Positions 2,081-62,660 of a DNA stretch of 64,000 nt are shown here, piece after piece. The position numbers were made by a program, and so were the translations under genes. The stretch spans positions 62,001-126,000 of the forward strand of contig NZ_JACTVA010000006.1 in NCBI RefSeq assembly GCF_014490485.1, written 5' to 3'. The notes under the pieces are model-generated. The model did not search any database. It was not told the origin of the DNA and saw only the letters and a list, made by a program, of their open reading frames with translations. The stretch is from Teichococcus aerophilus (GTDB lineage Bacteria; Pseudomonadota; Alphaproteobacteria; Acetobacterales; Acetobacteraceae). Within the stretch, counting starts at the first letter, position 1. Every line of letters begins with the position of its first letter.

Positions 2081-2340
2081 AGAAGGCTAGGGAAGGAATT
2101 CCCCAGGCCCCATCTTTCTTCTGCGAGTTCTTTGGGTGTCGATACGGGGGGAAAGGGACGTCGGCCATCATGGGCCCAGACCAGTGTTGCGCGGAGGGTC
2201 TGTGGCCGCCGGAGGCCGATCGTTCAGCCCGGTGGCTCATGGCCGCACCCGCCGGCCCTGAAGCCCCACGCCAACTGCCAGAAAAAAGACGGCGTAAACG
2301 TATACGTTTACGCAGGGGAATTCCTTTCCCTGACCTTCCT
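2081..2340. repeat. Paired terminator-like element A1
   Basis: The left end (2081-2130) and right end (2275-2340) are inverted copies of the family-A terminal unit: a GGGAA/TTCCC hairpin followed by a T-rich tract reading outward to inward. The right end carries a 22-bp perfect palindrome at 2292-2313 (arm GCGTAAACGTA). The element lies between the convergent CBS-BON and DUF3891 genes. The right end is 33 bp from the DUF3891 stop codon, in the orientation expected of its terminator. Confidence 0.85.
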
Positions 2341-12350: not shown

Positions 12351-12426
<76 letters not shown>

Positions 12427-14437: not shown

Positions 14438-15043
14438 ATGACCCTCTCCCGCCCGGCCGCGCCGCCCACCCCCGCCGCATCCCACGCGGCCGGGCCGATG
14501 GGGCCGCTGGGCCGCTACCTGCACCATCCGCAGCCCCGCGTGGCCGCCGCCAACCTGCTGGCGCTGGTGGTCGGCTGGAACACGCCCTTCTATCCGTTGA
14601 TGCTGCGCTGGGCCGCCGGGCCGGAGGTCTGGCCGATCGGGTGGCTGACCCTGCTATCCTGCCCGCTGTTCCTGGCCGTGCCCTGGCTGGCCCGGCGGAA
14701 CCCCACGGCAGGGCTGGCCCTGCTGGCATCGGCCGGTACCCTCAACACCTTGTTCTGTGCCTGGGTGCTGGGGCCGGGCACCGGCATCGCCCTGTTCTTG
14801 CCACCCTGCGCCCTGCTGGCCGCGCTGCTGCACCGGCCGCAGGAACGCAGCTTGATGCTGGGAGTCCTTGGTCTCATCCTCGCCGTGGCGGTCCTCTGCG
14901 CCTGGATGCCCGTGCCGCCGCTACTGACGATGCCAACCGAGGCCGCCGCCCGGGTGCTGGCGATGAACGCCGGCAGCGTGCTCTGCCTCTCCCTGGTCAT
15001 GGCCCTGCGCTACGCGCGTCTGCTGGAGGGTGAGGGGAGGTGA
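14438..15043 (+). CDS. Hypothetical integral membrane protein (six helices)
   Basis: A 201-residue protein with about six hydrophobic segments (LLALVVGWNTPFYPLML, WLTLLSCPLFLAVPWL, ALLASAGTLNTLFCAWVL, LFLPPCALLAALL, GVLGLILAVAVLCAW, VLCLSLVMALRYA). No catalytic motif is seen. It could be a membrane sensor module similar to those attached to cyclases, but no output domain is present. ATG 14438 has GGAGGG 6 nt upstream, and starting there avoids overlap with ade. Possibly co-transcribed with ade. Element A5 starts 2 bp after the stop. Confidence 0.65.
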   Translation: MTLSRPAAPPTPAASHAAGPMGPLGRYLHHPQPRVAAANLLALVVGWNTPFYPLMLRWAAGPEVWPIGWLTLLSCPLFLAVPWLARRNPTAGLALLASAGTLNTLFCAWVLGPGTGIALFLPPCALLAALLHRPQERSLMLGVLGLILAVAVLCAWMPVPPLLTMPTEAAARVLAMNAGSVLCLSLVMALRYARLLEGEGR

Positions 15044-15045
15044 AG

Positions 15046-15294
15046 AGAGAAGGCCGGGGAACGAATTCCCCGGACCCCTTCTTTTCTTTTTTCGAGTTCT
15101 TCGGGCGGCATTGTTGGAGCGGTGCGCTGAAACGACGGCTGGGTGCGCCGGAGGTCCTAGACCTCCGGCGACTGAGGGTTCAGCCTGCGGGGCCCATTAT
15201 AAAATCATCAAGCAGCGCCCGCTCTCAGTCCTGCAGCGCCACGCCAAACTCGCAGAAAAAAAGAAGGGGTCCGGGGAATTCTTTCCCCGGCCTT
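15046..15294. repeat. Paired terminator-like element A5
   Basis: A textbook copy: left end with GAAGG-CCGGGGAA-CGAA-TTCCCCGG-ACC-CCTTC then TTTTCTTTTTTCG, right end its inverted copy. The interior holds a perfect hairpin (CCGGAGGTC-CTA-GACCTCCGG, about 15149-15169) and is almost identical to the interior of A11. The ends lie 2 bp and 7 bp from the stop codons of two convergent genes. Confidence 0.92.
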
Positions 15295-15301
15295 TCCTGC
15301 C

Positions 15302-19055: not shown

Positions 19056-19100
19056 CTCCCCCCCAAGGTCACGGGGGGCTGCCCTGCATAATGGTGTGCC

Positions 19101-19386
19101 GGGGCCAAAGAGGGCTCCGCCCTCTCTGGACACTCCCGCTGGGGTGGCAGTGCCACCCCAGACCCCGCCGTCGGTTTTCAGGCAGGCGGCACGGTGGTTC
19201 CGCCGAGCGTCCATGACCCTCGACGACTGACGCCCCCAGCCAGCATGGCCTTATAAAAATACTTTGAACCCGTCCTGCGGCAGCGTTCCGCTCAAGCCGT
19301 AAAGCACTGAAAAAACCTGACAGCGGGGTCCGGGGTGGACTTTCCACCCCGGCGGGGCCTGGGGTCAGCACCCCCAGTACCAGCGC
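19101..19386. repeat. Paired repeat element C1
   Basis: The left unit (19101-19180) begins GGGGCCAAAGAGGGCTCCGC and contains the hairpin GGGGTGG-CAG-TGCCACCCC followed by CGGTTTTC. An inverted related unit (about 19308-19386) contains GGGGTGG-ACTTT-CCACCCC and an inner AAAAAACCTGACAG matching the complement of the left inner part. Thus it too is bounded by inverted hairpin/T-tract ends. The left unit recurs at 34633-34706. It lies between the GST stop and the COG0523 start. Confidence 0.65.
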
Positions 19387-20176: not shown

Positions 20177-20494
20177 AGGAAAGGTCAGGGGAAGGAATTC
20201 CTCTGAAACCCCATCTTTTTTCTGCGGGTTTTGGCGGCGGGCTTCAGGACTGCCTGGCAGAGCTAGAGCAGATATCCATCAGGTGGAATCACCTGACGGC
20301 GTGACGATGCCCTTCAAAACAACAAGCCAGAGCATTTGAAGTGAGCCTGTGCGAACAAAAAATGCTCTCAGTGAATGAGGATCGACCTCCAACGCAGCGC
20401 TGGCCTGGGCAGGAAAAAGCGAACGCTCCAACCGTCAGCCTCAAAAGACTCACAGACAAAAGATGGGGTCTGGGGAATTCCTTCCCCAGCCTTT
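20177..20494. repeat. Paired terminator-like element A6 with nested repeat B
   Basis: Left end hairpin TCAGGGGAA...TTCCTCTGA, right end CTGGGGAA...TTCCCCAG; both are followed by T-rich tracts in their reading direction. The interior (20272-20353) contains an inverted copy of repeat B. The right end is about 150 bp from the hrcA stop, in terminator orientation for hrcA. Confidence 0.8.
20272..20353 (-). repeat. Dispersed repeat B, copy 2 (inside A6)
   Basis: Inverted relative to copies at 1965-2044 and 49503-49582. It shares the terminal hairpin (ATCAGGTGGAATCACCTGA), the AACAAGCCAGAGCATTTGAA segment and the GCCTGTGCGA end. Its position inside element A6 suggests B inserted into, or was captured by, an A element. 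Confidence 0.7.
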
Positions 20495-22397: not shown

Positions 22398-22425
22398 CTT
22401 GTCGCGGCCGTAGTGGTCTTGGCGC

Positions 22426-22669
22426 GTAAGCTGGGGAATGAATTCCCCAGACCCCTTCTTTCTTTCTGCGGGTTTGGTGGAGCGCTGCAGGACTGAGGGC
22501 GGGCGCTTCCGAGGATATTCAATATCGGTCGTGCGGGCTGAACTCCCAGTCGCCAAGGTCTGAGACCTCTGGCGCTCCCAGCCTTATCCGCAGATCAACT
22601 CCTCAACGGCCACGCCCAAAAACTTGAAGAAGGAAAGAAGGGGCCCGGGGAATTCCTTCCCCGGCCTTC
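22426..22669. repeat. Paired terminator-like element A7
   Basis: The left hairpin is CTGGGGAA-TGAA-TTCCCCAG (a C:G/T:A covariant of the usual CC/GG arms); the right end is the CCGG form. The interior has the family hairpin CCAAGGTC-TGA-GACCTCTGG. It lies between the convergent small-gene pair and wbpE. Confidence 0.9.
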
Positions 22670-22831
22670 ACTGTCCTGCCTGGCTTCCATCCATCAAGGC
22701 GGCTCCAACCCGGACGCCGCGGCCGCCAAAGCATCGCCGCCAGATCACCCGGATGCGCGCCTGGACCGTCCCGGAAGAGCATTGCCCATCAGCGTGGCCG
22801 CCCCAAACGGCGGCGGCCACGAACGGGGCCG

Positions 22832-33395: not shown

Positions 33396-34710
33396 GCCGC
33401 GCCACAACCCCTGTCGACAACACCAGACCCAGGGCGAACCAGACCATCCGGTTCCCCAGGTCGGTGGATACCATCGCCGCCATCGCCACCGGCAGCACCA
33501 GGGCGGCCACCCGCGCCAGCCGGCCGGGCGCCATCCGCCGCAGGCGCAGCAGCGGCACCAGCGCGGCGCCGCCAAAGCACAGCAGCCAGAAGGCCAGACC
33601 GGGCAGGCCGCCCTCCGCCCAGGCTTCCAGCAGGTGGTTGTGCGGATACAGACCGCGCCGTTCCCCATAGCCGGCCGCCAGGGTGAAGCCGCCGGTGCCC
33701 ACACCCAGCGGCGCTGCGCCGCCCCACTCCATCGCCGCGCGCCACAGCGCCGGCCGTGCGGAGGATTCGACACCGCCCTGGGTGAAGCGCTCCAGAGTTC
33801 GCAGCCCCTCCATCCGGGCCGGGTTCAGCAGCATCACGCCCAGCGCCAACACGCCGCCCGCAGCTATCAGCGCCAGCCAGCCCAGCGCCGCGCGTGGCTT
33901 TGCCGCCGACCACAGCCGCAGCACCGGCACCAGCGCCACGCACAATCCCAGCGACAGCAGCGCCGTGCGGCCGCCCGGCAGCAGCACCGCCACCGCCATG
34001 GCGCCGATATAGCCCAGCCAGCCCAGCCGCCCGGCCCAGCCGCGCGCCTCCACCGCCCGCACGCCGCCCAGACCCGCCGCACAGGCGATGATCAGGCCCG
34101 CCAGCTGGTACTGCACCCGCACCAGGTCCGGATTGGCGCCCACCGCGCCGCCCAGCACCACCGAGCCTGTGGCCAACCCCCACGCGACCGAGGCCCCCAC
34201 CAGTGGCCCCGCCACCAGCACCAGCCCCACCAGCCAGCGCCGCGCCGCCGCATCCGCCCCCACCGCCAGCCCCGCCAGCAGCATCAGCGGGCCGAGCAGC
34301 ACGATCTCCGGCAGCTTGGCGGCCAGGATGTCGTGGCTGAGGCTCCAGGTGCCGGCCAGCACCGCCCACAGCCACAACAGCCCCGCCCCGGCGAGCGAGG
34401 GCGCCAGCAACGGATGCACCCACCACCGCCGCGTCAGCAGCAACAGTGCCAGCAAGGGCGGCAGTGCGAGCAGGGACAGCACCGTGATGTCGAACGGCAG
34501 CCCCGCCAGCACCGGCGAGGATTTCAGCGCCCCGGCGAATTGCAGGATGGCGGCGGCGAGGCCGGCCAGGGAGGCGATGGTGGCGGTGTCGATGCGGATG
34601 CCGCTGGTGATGCCTGTGCTGGCATGCGGGCCGGGGCCAAAGAGGGCTCCGCCCTCCCTGGACACTCCCGCCGGGGGGACAGGGTCCCCCCGGACCCCAC
34701 GGTCAGACAT
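33388..34710 (-). CDS. O-antigen ligase / polymerase family protein (Wzy_C)
   Basis: A 440-residue polytopic membrane protein (about ten helices). The Wzy_C/WaaL signature is in [29 protein letters not shown], preceded by [15 protein letters not shown] and a periplasmic loop with [19 protein letters not shown]. It may polymerise the repeat unit or ligate it to a carrier. The first about 28 residues (from ATG 34710, containing [15 protein letters not shown]) are encoded by a copy of repeat C; no other ATG or GTG start in frame precedes the first helix, so the native start is uncertain. Confidence 0.85.
34633..34706. repeat. Repeat C, second copy (inside the ligase 5' end)
   Basis: A 74-bp unit nearly identical to 19101-19175 in its first 45 bp (GGGGCCAAAGAGGGCTCCGC ... 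GGACACTCCCGC), then a diverged hairpin (CCGGGGGGAC/GTCCCCCCGG). No inverted partner is seen close by. It provides the first about 28 codons of the ligase frame on the minus strand. Confidence 0.75.
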
Positions 34711-47924: not shown

Positions 47925-47965
47925 GGGCTTCGTTCCTGTCTCTGCCTGGGTCTTTTGGATTGGGG

Positions 47966-48230
47966 AGGAAAGCCGGGGAAGGAATTCCCCGGGCCCCTTC
48001 TTTTCTTTTTTCGAGTTTTTACCGGGCGGGCCGTTGAGAGGGCGGGTCTGAGAGACAGCTGGGTGCGCCGGAGGTCCTGGACCTCCGGCGACTGACGGTT
48101 CAGCCCGCGTGGCCCATTGATAAAATCATCAAGCAGCGTCCGCTCTCAGCCCTGCAGCGCCACGCCAGACTCGCAGAAAAAAAGAAGGATCAAACCTATA
48201 GGTTTGATGGGGAATTCATTCCCCAGCCTT
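47966..48230. repeat. Paired terminator-like element A11 with extra palindrome
   Basis: The left end is the CCGG form with TTCTTTTCTTTTTTCGAG. The right end has TGGGGAA-TTCA-TTCCCCA and, between it and the A-rich tract, a 20-bp perfect palindrome (48189-48208, arm ATCAAACCTA). The interior hairpin CCGGAGGTC-CTG-GACCTCCGG and flanks are almost identical to A5 in the same orientation. Confidence 0.9.
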
Positions 48231-48361
48231 GCGCCAGCCGATCCGTAGCCGGACACGATCGATTCCCGAACGAAAGGCACCCAAACCCGGCGCAGGTGCG
48301 AAGGCTCTCCAGCTATGCCAGCATGTGGCTGAGGCTTGGCGCAGAGGGGGGAGCGACTGTC

Positions 48362-49225: not shown

Positions 49226-49745
49226 GGGGACGCTGTGGCAAGCCAAGCGGGTGAGGGCCAGGGTTATGCACCAGCGCGGGCCTGGCGCTCGCCGCATGGG
49301 GCCGGTGCGGAGACCCAGCAATGCCGCCAACAACGCTGGCCGCGAGTCCGCTGGCGATGGCCTAGCGGATTGTCTCCACAGCCCTTCAGCCGGTCCGGAA
49401 AAGGCCGCCGCGATCAAGCAGCTAGGACGTCCTGGTAGCCGGCGAGGCGACCGGCAGCCCCGCCCGGGCGCTTTCTGGCCGGTCGCCAGAGTATTTTCGG
49501 TCGCACAGGCTCACTTCCAATGCTCTCGCTTGTTGTTTTGCAGGGCAGGGCCACTCCATCCGGTGATTCCACCTGATGGAGCTCTCCTCCAGCCCGCGCA
49601 AGAAAGATGGCCGCGATTGCGCTTGCGGGATGCCAAGTGGTCGATGCAGCGCTTCCCGCCCATACCCGCACCGTATCGCCCCTACCCGGCGCCTGCATTG
49701 GACATCACCGGTGCGGCGGCGCATCCATCGGGGTGGAACCCACCG
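49226..49745. other. Intergenic region upstream of the chromate transporter
   Basis: About 520 bp with no recognised gene. It contains repeat B copy 3 (49503-49582). Open frames here are Arg/Ala/Gly-rich chance frames. The promoter of the chrA pair should lie between 49590 and 49740; no riboswitch or operator motif is recognised. Confidence 0.45.
49503..49582 (+). repeat. Dispersed repeat B, copy 3
   Basis: An 80-bp copy in the same orientation as 1965-2044: GCACAGGCTCACTTCCAATG, then GCTTGTTGTTTTG, then the hairpin GGTGATTCCACCTGATGG. It is not associated with a family-A element here. Confidence 0.7.
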
Positions 49746-50866: not shown

Positions 50867-50878
50867 CGTGCCGGGGGA

Positions 50879-51123
50879 TGCAGGCCGGGGAAAGAATTCC
50901 CCGGACCCCTCCTTTTCTTTCTGCGGGTTTGGCGGCGCGCCTCAGCGCGTAGGACGGGCGCTTCTTGATGATTTTAAAGATGGGTCATGTGGGCTGAACC
51001 GTCAGTCGGAGGTCTTAGACCTCGGCGCACCCAGCCGTCTCTCAGGCCTAACCCACCAAAAGTCACTCCTGAAAACTCGATAAAAAGGGAGAAGGGGTCC
51101 GGGGAATTCCTTCCCCGGCCTTC
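50879..51123. repeat. Paired terminator-like element A12
   Basis: Both ends are CCGGGGAA-type hairpins with T-rich tracts, 12 bp and 17 bp from the stop codons of convergent genes. The interior is in the opposite orientation to A5/A11: TTGATGATTTT, then GGGCTGAACCGTCAGTCGGA and the hairpin CGGAGGTC-TTA-GACCTCGG. Confidence 0.9.
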
Positions 51124-51140
51124 CTCCAACGCCCCAGGTC

Positions 51141-54027: not shown

Positions 54028-54924
54028 ATGCTCATCGTCTTCAATCCGGCCGCCGGCAGCCGGCGCCGCTCCCGCCTCGATCGTGCCCTGGCCCTGCTGC
54101 CCGGCGCGCGGCTGGCCGAGACCCATGGGCCCAGCCATGCCGAGGCGCTGGCCCGCCAGGCCGCCGCCGCCGGCGAGGATTGCGTGGTGGCCGCCGGCGG
54201 CGATGGCACCATTGCCGAAGTGGCGGCCGGGCTGGTCGGCAGCCAGACCGCGCTGGGCATCCTGCCGCTGGGCACCGCCAACGTGCTGGCGCTGGAACTC
54301 CGCCTGCCCCGCCAGCCGGAGGAGGCAGCCCGCGCCCTGCTGACCGGGCAGGACACGGCGCTGTGGCCCGGCATCGCCCGCTTCGGCAGCGGCCAGTCCC
54401 GCCTGTTCGTGCAAATGCTGGGCGCCGGGTTCGACGCCATGGTGGTGCGCAACCTGGACCTGCGGCTGAAGCGCCGCGCCGGCCGCGCCGCCTATGTCTG
54501 GCAAGCGGCGCGGGAACTGCCCCGCTACCGGTTCCGGCCTATCCAGGCCGTGCTGGATGGCGGCGCCCCCATGCCCGCCAGCGCCCTGGTGGTGACCAAG
54601 GGCCGCCTCTACGCTGGCCCCTTCCGCCTTGCCCCCGGTGCCACGCCGCTGCGCCCTGGCTTCCACGTGGCACTGATCGGCGGCGGCGCCCTGCACGCCG
54701 CCATGGCCGGCGCGCTGCTGCCGCTGGGCCTGCTGCCGCACCTGCCCGGTCTGGTGCTGCACCAGGCCTCCCGGATTGCCCTCCGCGGCGAAGACGTGCC
54801 GACGCAGATGGATGGCGACGTGACCGGCGACCTGCCAGTGACCATCGACGACGCCCCGGCACCCCTGCGGGTCCGCTTGCCTGCGGGGTCGGGGACGGAG
54901 CATGGGAGGAAGGCTGGGGAATGA
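54028..54924 (+). CDS. Diacylglycerol/lipid kinase family protein (YegS/DagK-like)
   Basis: A 298-residue ATP-dependent lipid kinase. The N-terminal domain has FNPAAGSRRR and the nucleotide loop GGDGT (57-61), then LGILPLGTANVLALELRLP; the C-terminal domain has AGFDAMVV and a closing DGDVTGDLPVTI. Likely recycles or phosphorylates a diacylglycerol-type lipid. The last codons (from about 54906) lie in the left end of element A13, so the extreme C-terminus is repeat-derived. Divergent from the LpxH-like gene. Confidence 0.87.
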   Translation: MLIVFNPAAGSRRRSRLDRALALLPGARLAETHGPSHAEALARQAAAAGEDCVVAAGGDGTIAEVAAGLVGSQTALGILPLGTANVLALELRLPRQPEEAARALLTGQDTALWPGIARFGSGQSRLFVQMLGAGFDAMVVRNLDLRLKRRAGRAAYVWQAARELPRYRFRPIQAVLDGGAPMPASALVVTKGRLYAGPFRLAPGATPLRPGFHVALIGGGALHAAMAGALLPLGLLPHLPGLVLHQASRIALRGEDVPTQMDGDVTGDLPVTIDDAPAPLRVRLPAGSGTEHGRKAGE

Positions 54925-55144
54925 ATTCCCCAGACCCCATCTTTTTTCTTCGAGTTTGGCGAAGCGCTGCAGGACTGAGAGTGGCGCTGCTTGATGATAT
55001 TCAAAATGGGCCACGCGGGCTGAACCGTCAGTCGCCGCAGGTCCAGGACCTCCGGCCATCTCTCAGCACTGCCGGTTCAACAGCCCCACGCAGAAAACTC
55101 GAAAAAAGAAAAGATGGGGTCCGGGGAATTCCTTCCCCGGCCTT
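54906..55144. repeat. Paired terminator-like element A13 (overlaps a CDS end)
   Basis: The left hairpin CTGGGGAA-TGAA-TTCCCCAG begins inside the lipid-kinase gene and contains its stop codon; the right end is the CCGG form, 35 bp from the PhnD-like stop. The interior matches A12 in orientation (TTGATGATATTC, GGGCTGAACCGTCAGTCGCC). Confidence 0.9.
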
Positions 55145-55179
55145 CTCCTTCCCTTTCTGAACACCGCGCGTCGGGCCGC

Positions 55180-58960: not shown

Positions 58961-59397
58961 GTAAGGCCGGGGGAAGGAATTCCCCCGGACCCCCATCTTC
59001 TTTTTGCGGGTTTTTGCCTTTGCGGCTGGGTGCCCGGCATGGTCGCACCATCGATGGCTGTCGAGACAGACCGTTCGGCGCGCTCGGCCTGTTCCATCCT
59101 CACAGGCGCTGACGGTTGCGCAGGCCCGGAACGCCGGGCGCCGCCTGGCGCCTACCGACATTCGGCGCGCGACAGGAGGGAAGGTCAGGGAAAAGAATTC
59201 TCCTGCGTAAACGTATACGTTTACGCCATCTTTTTCCTGTCAGTCGGTGGGGGCCACCTGGGCTGAAGGTCCGGCCTCCAGCCGTCACGGGCCTCTGGGC
59301 GTAACCTGGGGCTCAACAGGCTGGACGCCCACTACAACCACATCCGAAATATTCACAGAAAAAAGAAGGGGTCCGGGGAATGCTTTCCCCGGCCTTC
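58961..59397. repeat. Family-A repeat cluster A14 with three ends
   Basis: A left-type end (58961-59015, CCGGGGGAA...TTCCCCCGG) lies 21 bp behind the PBP1A stop. A second left-type end (59180-59240) carries the 22-bp perfect palindrome at 59205-59226 (arm GCGTAAACGTA). A right-type end (59353-59397) is last. Two left ends and one right end suggest insertion of one copy into another, or tandem duplication with loss of an end. Confidence 0.85.
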
Positions 59398-62251: not shown

Positions 62252-62290
62252 ACTGAAGGCCAGGGCCGATCGACATTCGGCTCAGGGGGA

Positions 62291-62540
62291 GAGGGAAGGC
62301 CAGGGGAAAGAATTCTCCTGCGTAAATGTAGACGTTTACGCCATCTCTTTTCTGTCAGCTGGCGTGGAACTCAGGACCAGCAGATGCGGCCTTGGGAAAA
62401 ATCACGGGCCATCTGGACTGAACCAGCAGCCTCCGGCGTCACCCTGCTCTGGGCCTGGAAAAGCTGACACCGCCACATCCGCGCCCGAAAGACTCGCAGA
62501 AAAAAGAAGGGGTCCGGGGAATTCCTTCCCCGGCCTTCCT
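62291..62540. repeat. Paired terminator-like element A16
   Basis: The left end carries a degenerate palindrome (62320-62341, two substitutions relative to the copies at 2292 and 59205), and the right end (62490-62540) is the standard CCGG form. An outer inverted flank is visible: CCGATCGACATTCGG at 62266 and its counterpart near 62550. It starts 39 bp after the stress-protein stop. Confidence 0.85.
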
Positions 62541-62607: not shown

Positions 62608-62660
62608 TCTCTCGAGAAAAGAAGATGGGGCCTGGGGGAATTCCTTCCCCCAGCCTTCCC
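62608..62660 (-). repeat. Solo family-A right end A17
   Basis: A single terminal unit without a nearby left partner: CTCGAGAAAAGAAGATGGGG followed by the CTGGGGGAA-TTCC-TTCCCCCAG hairpin. It ends 5 bp before the stop codon of the ABC permease gene and reads as that gene's terminator. Confidence 0.8.

Follow-up and report, generated by a model that had tools for sequence, protein, structure and literature searches.

Recurring palindromes at one position in terminator-like repeat ends are candidates for an optional second hairpin

The locus at 48189-48208 raises the question of what a perfect palindrome does between the T-tract and the hairpin of a repeat end, and how it relates to similar inserts in the same stretch of DNA. 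The stretch analysed, here called the window, comprises 64,000 nucleotides (G000:C97:62001-126000; 70% GC) of a host genome of 5,663,844 bases in 140 contigs. A sequence-only reading had listed four such palindromes at one fixed position: one of 20 bp, one of 22 bp present twice, and a decayed copy. All four were confirmed (Table 1). The fixed position was borne out as well, each palindrome lying between the A-tract with its AGAWGG-type arm and the GGGGAATTC hairpin, where it replaces the linker. The further claim that the 22-bp palindrome (M1) and the 20-bp palindrome (M2) are unrelated sequences was wrong, as both share AAAC-S-TATA-S-GTTT about their centre.

Table 1. Positions of modules, element parts and sister elements in the window.
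Feature	Positions	Strand	Remarks
Module M2, ATCAAACCTATAGGTTTGAT	48189-48208		Perfect 20-bp palindrome; 8-bp stem and 4-nt loop if folded
Terminator-like hairpin with T tail at M2	48189-48208	-	Generic scan
A-tract and AGAAGG arm of M2 end	48177-48188	+	On the - strand CCTTC, then T-tract
First (core) hairpin of M2 end, GGGGAATTCATTCCCC	48209-48224	+	
M2 element	47975-48224		Two inward-facing ends; left ordinary (linker GGCCC), right with M2
Module M1, GCGTAAACGTATACGTTTACGC	2292-2313		Perfect 22-bp copy; terminator-like on the - strand
M1 element	2089-2330		M1 at right end; left ordinary (linker GGCCT)
Module M1	59205-59226		Perfect, identical to 2292-2313; terminator-like on the + strand
M1 element	59188-59390		M1 at left end; right ordinary
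Module M1, decayed	62320-62341		Two mismatches to the 22-mer; terminator-like on the + strand
M1 element	62303-62531		M1 at left end; right ordinary
Module-free sister of 47975-48224	15056-15288		Families D9 and D15: 92% and 91% identity
Sister with 5-nt linker at the same place	15041-15300		
Sister with 5-nt linker at the same place	22418-22674		
Sister with 5-nt linker at the same place	50872-51128		
Sister with 5-nt linker at the same place	54901-55150		

The window is crowded with short inverted-repeat elements and contains inverted repeats of 50-137 nt. From inside to outside, an element end shows an A-rich tract with an arm of AGAAGG or AGATGG, then a short linker, then the hairpin GGGGAATTCNTTCCCC, which carries one or two further pairs in the ends, and finally CCTT. 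In the opposite direction, into the element, the hairpin precedes a T-tract. The core hairpin had 1123 matches in the genome at up to two mismatches (control, 2). In 1.24 Mb of sampled stretches, which were chosen partly around modules, 318 ends were located. They formed 127 inverted pairs, so that terminal inverted repeats on a short element are present, and 64 singles; paired ends were usually about 100-400 bp apart, mostly with 160-220 bp between the cores. The end finder was blind to the module sequence. Of the 38 known module sites in the 1.24-Mb sample it recovered 30; the other eight are aberrant in arm, A-tract or core or are located at the edge of a contig. It also overlooked at least one ordinary end of the window (near 62635). 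The spread of the elements is uneven, with dozens of ends in contig C97 and none found in the first 100 kb of contig C108.

Further repeats were observed in and around these elements. A long palindrome resembling GCGCCGGAGGTCC(TA or TG)GGACCTCCGGCG occupies the interior of an element subfamily (15134-15198 and 48054-48118; family D9). A second repeat of about 100 bp, beginning with GCACAGGCT and carrying the terminal hairpin GATTCCACCTGATGGA, lies at 1951-2054, 20262-20366 and 49494-49593, inside or beside some elements (families D13, I3 and I4). Another GC-rich hairpin repeat, GAGGGCTCCGCCCTC, occurs at 19098-19172 and 34630-34704 with 87% identity between the copies (family D16).

At up to three mismatches, M1 was found at 22 places and M2 at 15 places of the 5.66-Mb genome, while the reversed-pattern control gave none for either. 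The context of all 37 places was inspected, and each lies at the same site in an end; the first hairpin is badly degraded in one M2 copy (L027) and diverged in another (L023). A 38th site (C83:21139, L087) holds an M2 variant that is one base longer and still palindromic. Linkers measured 2-12 nt in 288 of the 318 ends and 20-23 nt in the other 30, no end having a linker of 13-19 nt, and every one of the 30 long linkers is M1 or M2. A third palindrome module was detected in the host genome neither by a gapped scan nor among these long linkers. Recurrence at one site is thus not chance: the limited, recurring set of modules that had been foreseen consists of two in the host, and the genome-wide catalogue did not yield isolated accidents at differing positions, a possibility that was rejected.

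The shared core, at up to two mismatches, has 39 places in the genome, of which 38 lie in ends; the remaining one is chance-like, with two mismatches. One decayed core-like site found in the core scan belongs to a decayed end in contig C91. The suggestion that the palindromes might correspond to binding sites of a known factor was not borne out, as none matched and the same scan placed nearly all core sites in ends. An operator of a DNA regulon was rejected, no standalone sites having been found.

In each pair with a module, only one of the two ends carried it (25 of 25 pairs in the host, 16 of 16 in sampled relatives), a pattern that is not significant for the 25 host pairs, having a chance of 0.42 at the genome-wide module frequency. 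In contig C51, a distance of 285 bp separates an M1 element from a lone M2 end; a copy of the approximately 100-bp GCACAGGCT repeat was seen between them.

The two modules are distributed differently among the elements. The nearest neighbour of an M1 interior was another M1 interior in 14 of 19 cases and type II in five, which assigns M1 to one subfamily. For M2 interiors it was ordinary type I in nine of 11 cases, M2 in one and type II in one, which places M2 in several subfamilies. When the element at 47960-48236 was aligned with its four sisters, the 20-nt module was found to be swapped for 5 nt exactly at the linker, and the M1 ends at 2292, 59205 and 62320 align likewise with ordinary type II ends. 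The earlier notion of a modular insertion therefore fits M2, with its several subfamilies, better than M1, which marks one subfamily. The companion notion, that each site underwent its own local inverted duplication, is unlikely for the majority of copies, given that one sequence recurs and that the genus has the core in common; such a duplication may nevertheless have been the first origin. An outer tip like GCCGAATGTCGATCGGCC was observed 15-30 nt outside the hairpin (for example at 2350-2385 and 62265-62290) in 14 of 19 M1 ends, compared to 14 of 75 type II, 14 of 202 type I and one of 11 ends with M2; shuffling gave 2 of 318. Since this tip is enriched outside M1 hairpins, the M1 subfamily may extend beyond them.

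Divergence from the consensus was far from uniform along the ends. In the 19 M1 copies, the module diverged by 4.5%, the first hairpin by 11.3%, the interior by 26.6% and the outer flank by 26.2%; the corresponding values for the 11 M2 copies were 4.1%, 8.6%, 35.6% and 54%. The low divergence of the modules can be due to purifying selection or to recent exchange, between which the data do not separate.

Searches for M1 and M2 themselves at up to one mismatch were positive in only one of 299 family genomes, that of the host, and exact M1 had no match in the contig database, from which the host genome may be absent. These searches failed in relatives because the modules there are spelled differently. 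One gapped pattern, applied to 17 genomes of the genus, showed that 11 of 16 relatives have palindromes at the corresponding site: CGCAAACGTATACGTTTGCG in G299, G302, G269 and G306, ATCAAACGTATACGTTTGAT in G107 and G307, GGTCAAACCTATAGGTTTGACC in G205 and CGCGGACGTACACGTCCGCG in G293 are examples. The pattern had no match in G016 and G305, and its matches in G162, G300 and G304 were other than such inserts. A core of YAAAC-S-TNNA-S-GTTTR is common to M1, M2 and most modules of the relatives; symmetric variation of the S pair and the outer letters is seen even in a single genome (G301). G239 is an exception with two inserts that lack the full core, one of them GC-rich. The latter (L214, 9766-9816) is the palindrome GTGCGGGGCACTGCCCCGCAC, located at the same site and devoid of an AAAC core.

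A scan of the contig database for the core followed by a T-tract returned 50 stretches. All 19 that derive from Roseomonas, Pseudoroseomonas or Acetobacteraceae AT-5844 stand behind a GGGGAA-type hairpin, and the 31 from other taxa lack such a hairpin. The core hairpin itself was present at up to one mismatch in 16 of 17 genus genomes, with 925 matches in the host, 22-346 in the other 15 matched genomes and none in G016. At one locus, orthologous to 2089-2330, G107 has a plain hairpin, GCGCGGGGGAATTGCTTCCCCCGCGC, with a T-rich tail. An orthologous empty site for the M2 element was not obtained; in the relative with the best match to the upstream gene (G301, 67% identity), another gene follows downstream.

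Pairing within the modules was analysed with 51 of the 52 collected module ends (30 from the host and 21 from relatives; a row with a 32-nt linker was left out). In this set 94.3% of module cells pair, and two-sided changes were seen in eight of nine module stem pairs, although two-sided cells are not the same as independent events. The covariation score of module and first hairpin together was 0.323, compared to 0.136 in shuffles (of 500, none scored as high) and no more than 0.075 when slid; the number of further pair types did not exceed that of shuffles (73 of 500 as high). Tallying by position was done on 33 distinct modules, leaving out two odd-centred rows. Counted from the centre, pairs 4-7 are nearly fixed as C-G, A-T, A-T and A-T. 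In the S pair and the outer stem, a change on one side is accompanied by a change on the other: pair 3 is GC (16) or CG (14), pair 8 CG (20) or TA (11), pair 9 GC (18) or TA (11), and pair 10 CG (17), GC (7) or AT (5). The central four positions vary most, and the central pair is of the Watson-Crick type in only 21 of the 33.

A different picture emerged within the host genome. Among its copies, 11 of 120 loop cells but only 17 of 518 stem cells were changed (p 0.011), and the stem changes in 29 of the 30 copies were one-sided in 17 cases and two-sided in none. The copy left out of this count (L087) shows a coordinated change by which the palindrome is kept. As changes are two-sided across lineages and one-sided within the genome, pairing is maintained between lineages and lost singly in copies. 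A strand-specific G-U signal in the first hairpin gave no support for selection on terminator-sense RNA, with counts of 31 compared to 18 in the opposite sense in the host (p 0.085) and 4 compared to 2 in relatives. In folds of single sequences the long-range pairing often varies, and a three-way junction is not always the minimum.

A generic terminator scan flagged all four module ends of the window in the T-tract direction and one (3326) of 19 ordinary ends, these being the listed ends within two scanned ranges. Three ends (15056, 55123 and the one near 62635) were flagged in the opposite direction. Total counts were 15 compared to 9.4 (sd 2.9) in shuffles, and 10 compared to 7.7 (sd 3.0), that is, within about two standard deviations. 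The scan gives no credit for a bulged outer stem, which ordinary ends form in some folds; because such stems are ignored, ordinary ends may terminate transcription as well.

Gene context was derived from a simple gene caller of our own, which was not benchmarked and predicted 1381 genes in 1.61 Mb (coverage 0.83). Element pairs were found in 55 convergent, 64 tandem and six divergent gaps and single ends in 29, 24 and four, respectively, compared to 46, 228 and 130 for end-free gaps of at least 100 bp; the comparison of pairs with end-free gaps gave p values of 3e-14 (convergent) and 1e-11. M1 pairs (eight convergent, six tandem, one divergent) and M2 pairs (three, six and none) were counted separately. 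An end is present in 78 of the 124 convergent intergenic regions that measure at least 100 bp in the sampled stretches. None of the 125 pairs with known context lies inside a called gene; with its 1123 core matches, the element is multi-copy and intergenic. The ends lie at the 3' side of genes, a location that is equally expected of a mobile element tolerated only there.

With regard to mobility, no transposase was recognised by eye among the long frames of three wider spans between ends. The PF01797 (Y1_Tnp) profile had no match in the host genome at an E value of 0.001, at which the control was positive in five of 14 genomes. In a survey for target-site duplications, no offset had matching 4-mers in more than five of 127 pairs and no longer match stood out, given that the outer boundary is uncertain and that old or unalignable duplications could be missed. 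The features of a miniature inverted-repeat transposable element (MITE) are thus present only in part, a target duplication and a mobiliser not having been found. At Rfam gathering scores, the sole match in the window was a tRNA (12351-12423).

The elements are best read as nearest in kind to SPRITE and other MITE-type repeats. SPRITE is described as a small interspersed repeat of pneumococci that combines a hairpin with a T-rich tract, is enriched between convergent genes and has no known mobiliser; co-option of these repeats as terminators was proposed (PMC3049150). The terminator-like shape and the bias towards convergent genes are common to both. As characterised in that account, SPRITE has a single hairpin, about 30 copies, an AT-rich sequence and tetranucleotide terminal inverted repeats (PMC3049150), whereas the host has about a thousand ends, most often arranged as inverted pairs, of which a few per cent carry a swappable second hairpin; the comparison is one of descriptions only. 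ERIC, Correia/NEMIS, RUP and CIR repeats are likewise short, non-coding, intergenic, multi-copy inverted repeats that are structured if transcribed (PMC10969869, PMC2229807). Block-size variants are known among them, as the 155-bp and 107-bp forms of Correia differ by a 50-bp internal sequence, but a hairpin block of 20-23 nt at one site in the end that is respelled between species with its pairing kept does not appear in the descriptions considered here (PMC10969869, PMC2229807). High-copy extragenic palindromes in inverted pairs are also a trait of REP/BIME sequences (PMC2817692, PMC3733652), in which the foot of the palindrome bears a GTAG or CGTC tag (PMC3733652); unlike REP/BIME systems with a RAYT, the host lacks a PF01797 match. 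Ordinary terminators of the genus, such as the one at the orthologous place in G107, resemble the ends in having a hairpin with a T-rich tail, but the ends in the host belong to a repeat family whose members have arms and interiors in common, unlike a plain terminator. No paper on such repeats in Roseomonas was among those listed in searches of an open-licence library, which does not prove novelty in print.

On balance we lean towards the explanation that the four palindromes represent a second hairpin, optional and structurally maintained, of genus-wide, MITE-like, terminator-bearing repeats. Alternatively, the module could act as double-stranded DNA, being a palindrome, carried by some ends, to which a dimeric transposase or host factor would bind. 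Perfect palindromes with an inner AAAC..GTTT core, near-invariance at positions 4-7 from the centre and the presence of a module at only one end of a pair would suit such a site. However, symmetric variation of outer letters and S pair within the single genome of G301 is unexpected for one sequence-reading protein, the central four positions are the most variable, the confinement of core-like places to ends gives no sign of a wider regulon, and the one-end pattern lacks significance in the host; we regard this explanation as unlikely.

Distinctly unlikely in our view is a mutational by-product, whereby an inverted duplication or template switch occurred once or a few times at a quasi-palindromic site and the product then hitch-hiked with element copies. 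Uncompensated decay of copies and the restriction of M1 to one subfamily are in line with such an origin, as is the resemblance of some ordinary linkers (GGTTTGA, two ends) to the right arm of M2, and palindrome-correcting mutation could explain part of the symmetry. Yet neutral passengers would not be expected to have a common core and an unchanged position in 11 of 16 relatives whose outer stems differ, nor to diverge far less than the interiors. A separate tiny mobile palindrome, or its footprint, inserting at a hot spot in these hairpins would account for M2 occurring in several subfamilies at the same base and for sister elements with and without a module. We consider it highly improbable, given that no such palindrome lies elsewhere in the host genome except for the one chance-like place with two mismatches, that the module replaces the 5-nt linker instead of being added to it, and that no target duplication is visible in the sister alignment.

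If the palindromes are an optional second hairpin, we infer that, in transcripts that enter the element, the module would fold into a hairpin immediately adjacent to the U-tract. This would turn the end into a terminator with two hairpins or into a junction that the arm closes. Integrity of the hairpin would have been kept in the lineages that were copied onward. M1 would have spread with one element subfamily, and M2 would have passed from one subfamily to another, for which recombination or gene conversion involving near-identical ends is the simplest route; M2 might instead represent an old state that was lost many times. More tentatively, and with considerable doubt on our part, the module may be an exchangeable cassette whose core, YAAAC-S-UNNA-S-GUUUR, is read by a putative RNA- or single-stranded-DNA-binding factor that switches selected repeat-borne terminators or marks copyable ends, the spelling being species-specific.

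If the second-hairpin explanation is right, an extra hairpin of defined kind, placed at one position, has diversified a family of terminator-like repeats; natural sister copies with and without it occur in one genome, and respelled versions across the genus. Two matters would then become directly testable: mobile repeats as a supply of the terminators of a genome, and the effect of a second hairpin beside the U-tract.
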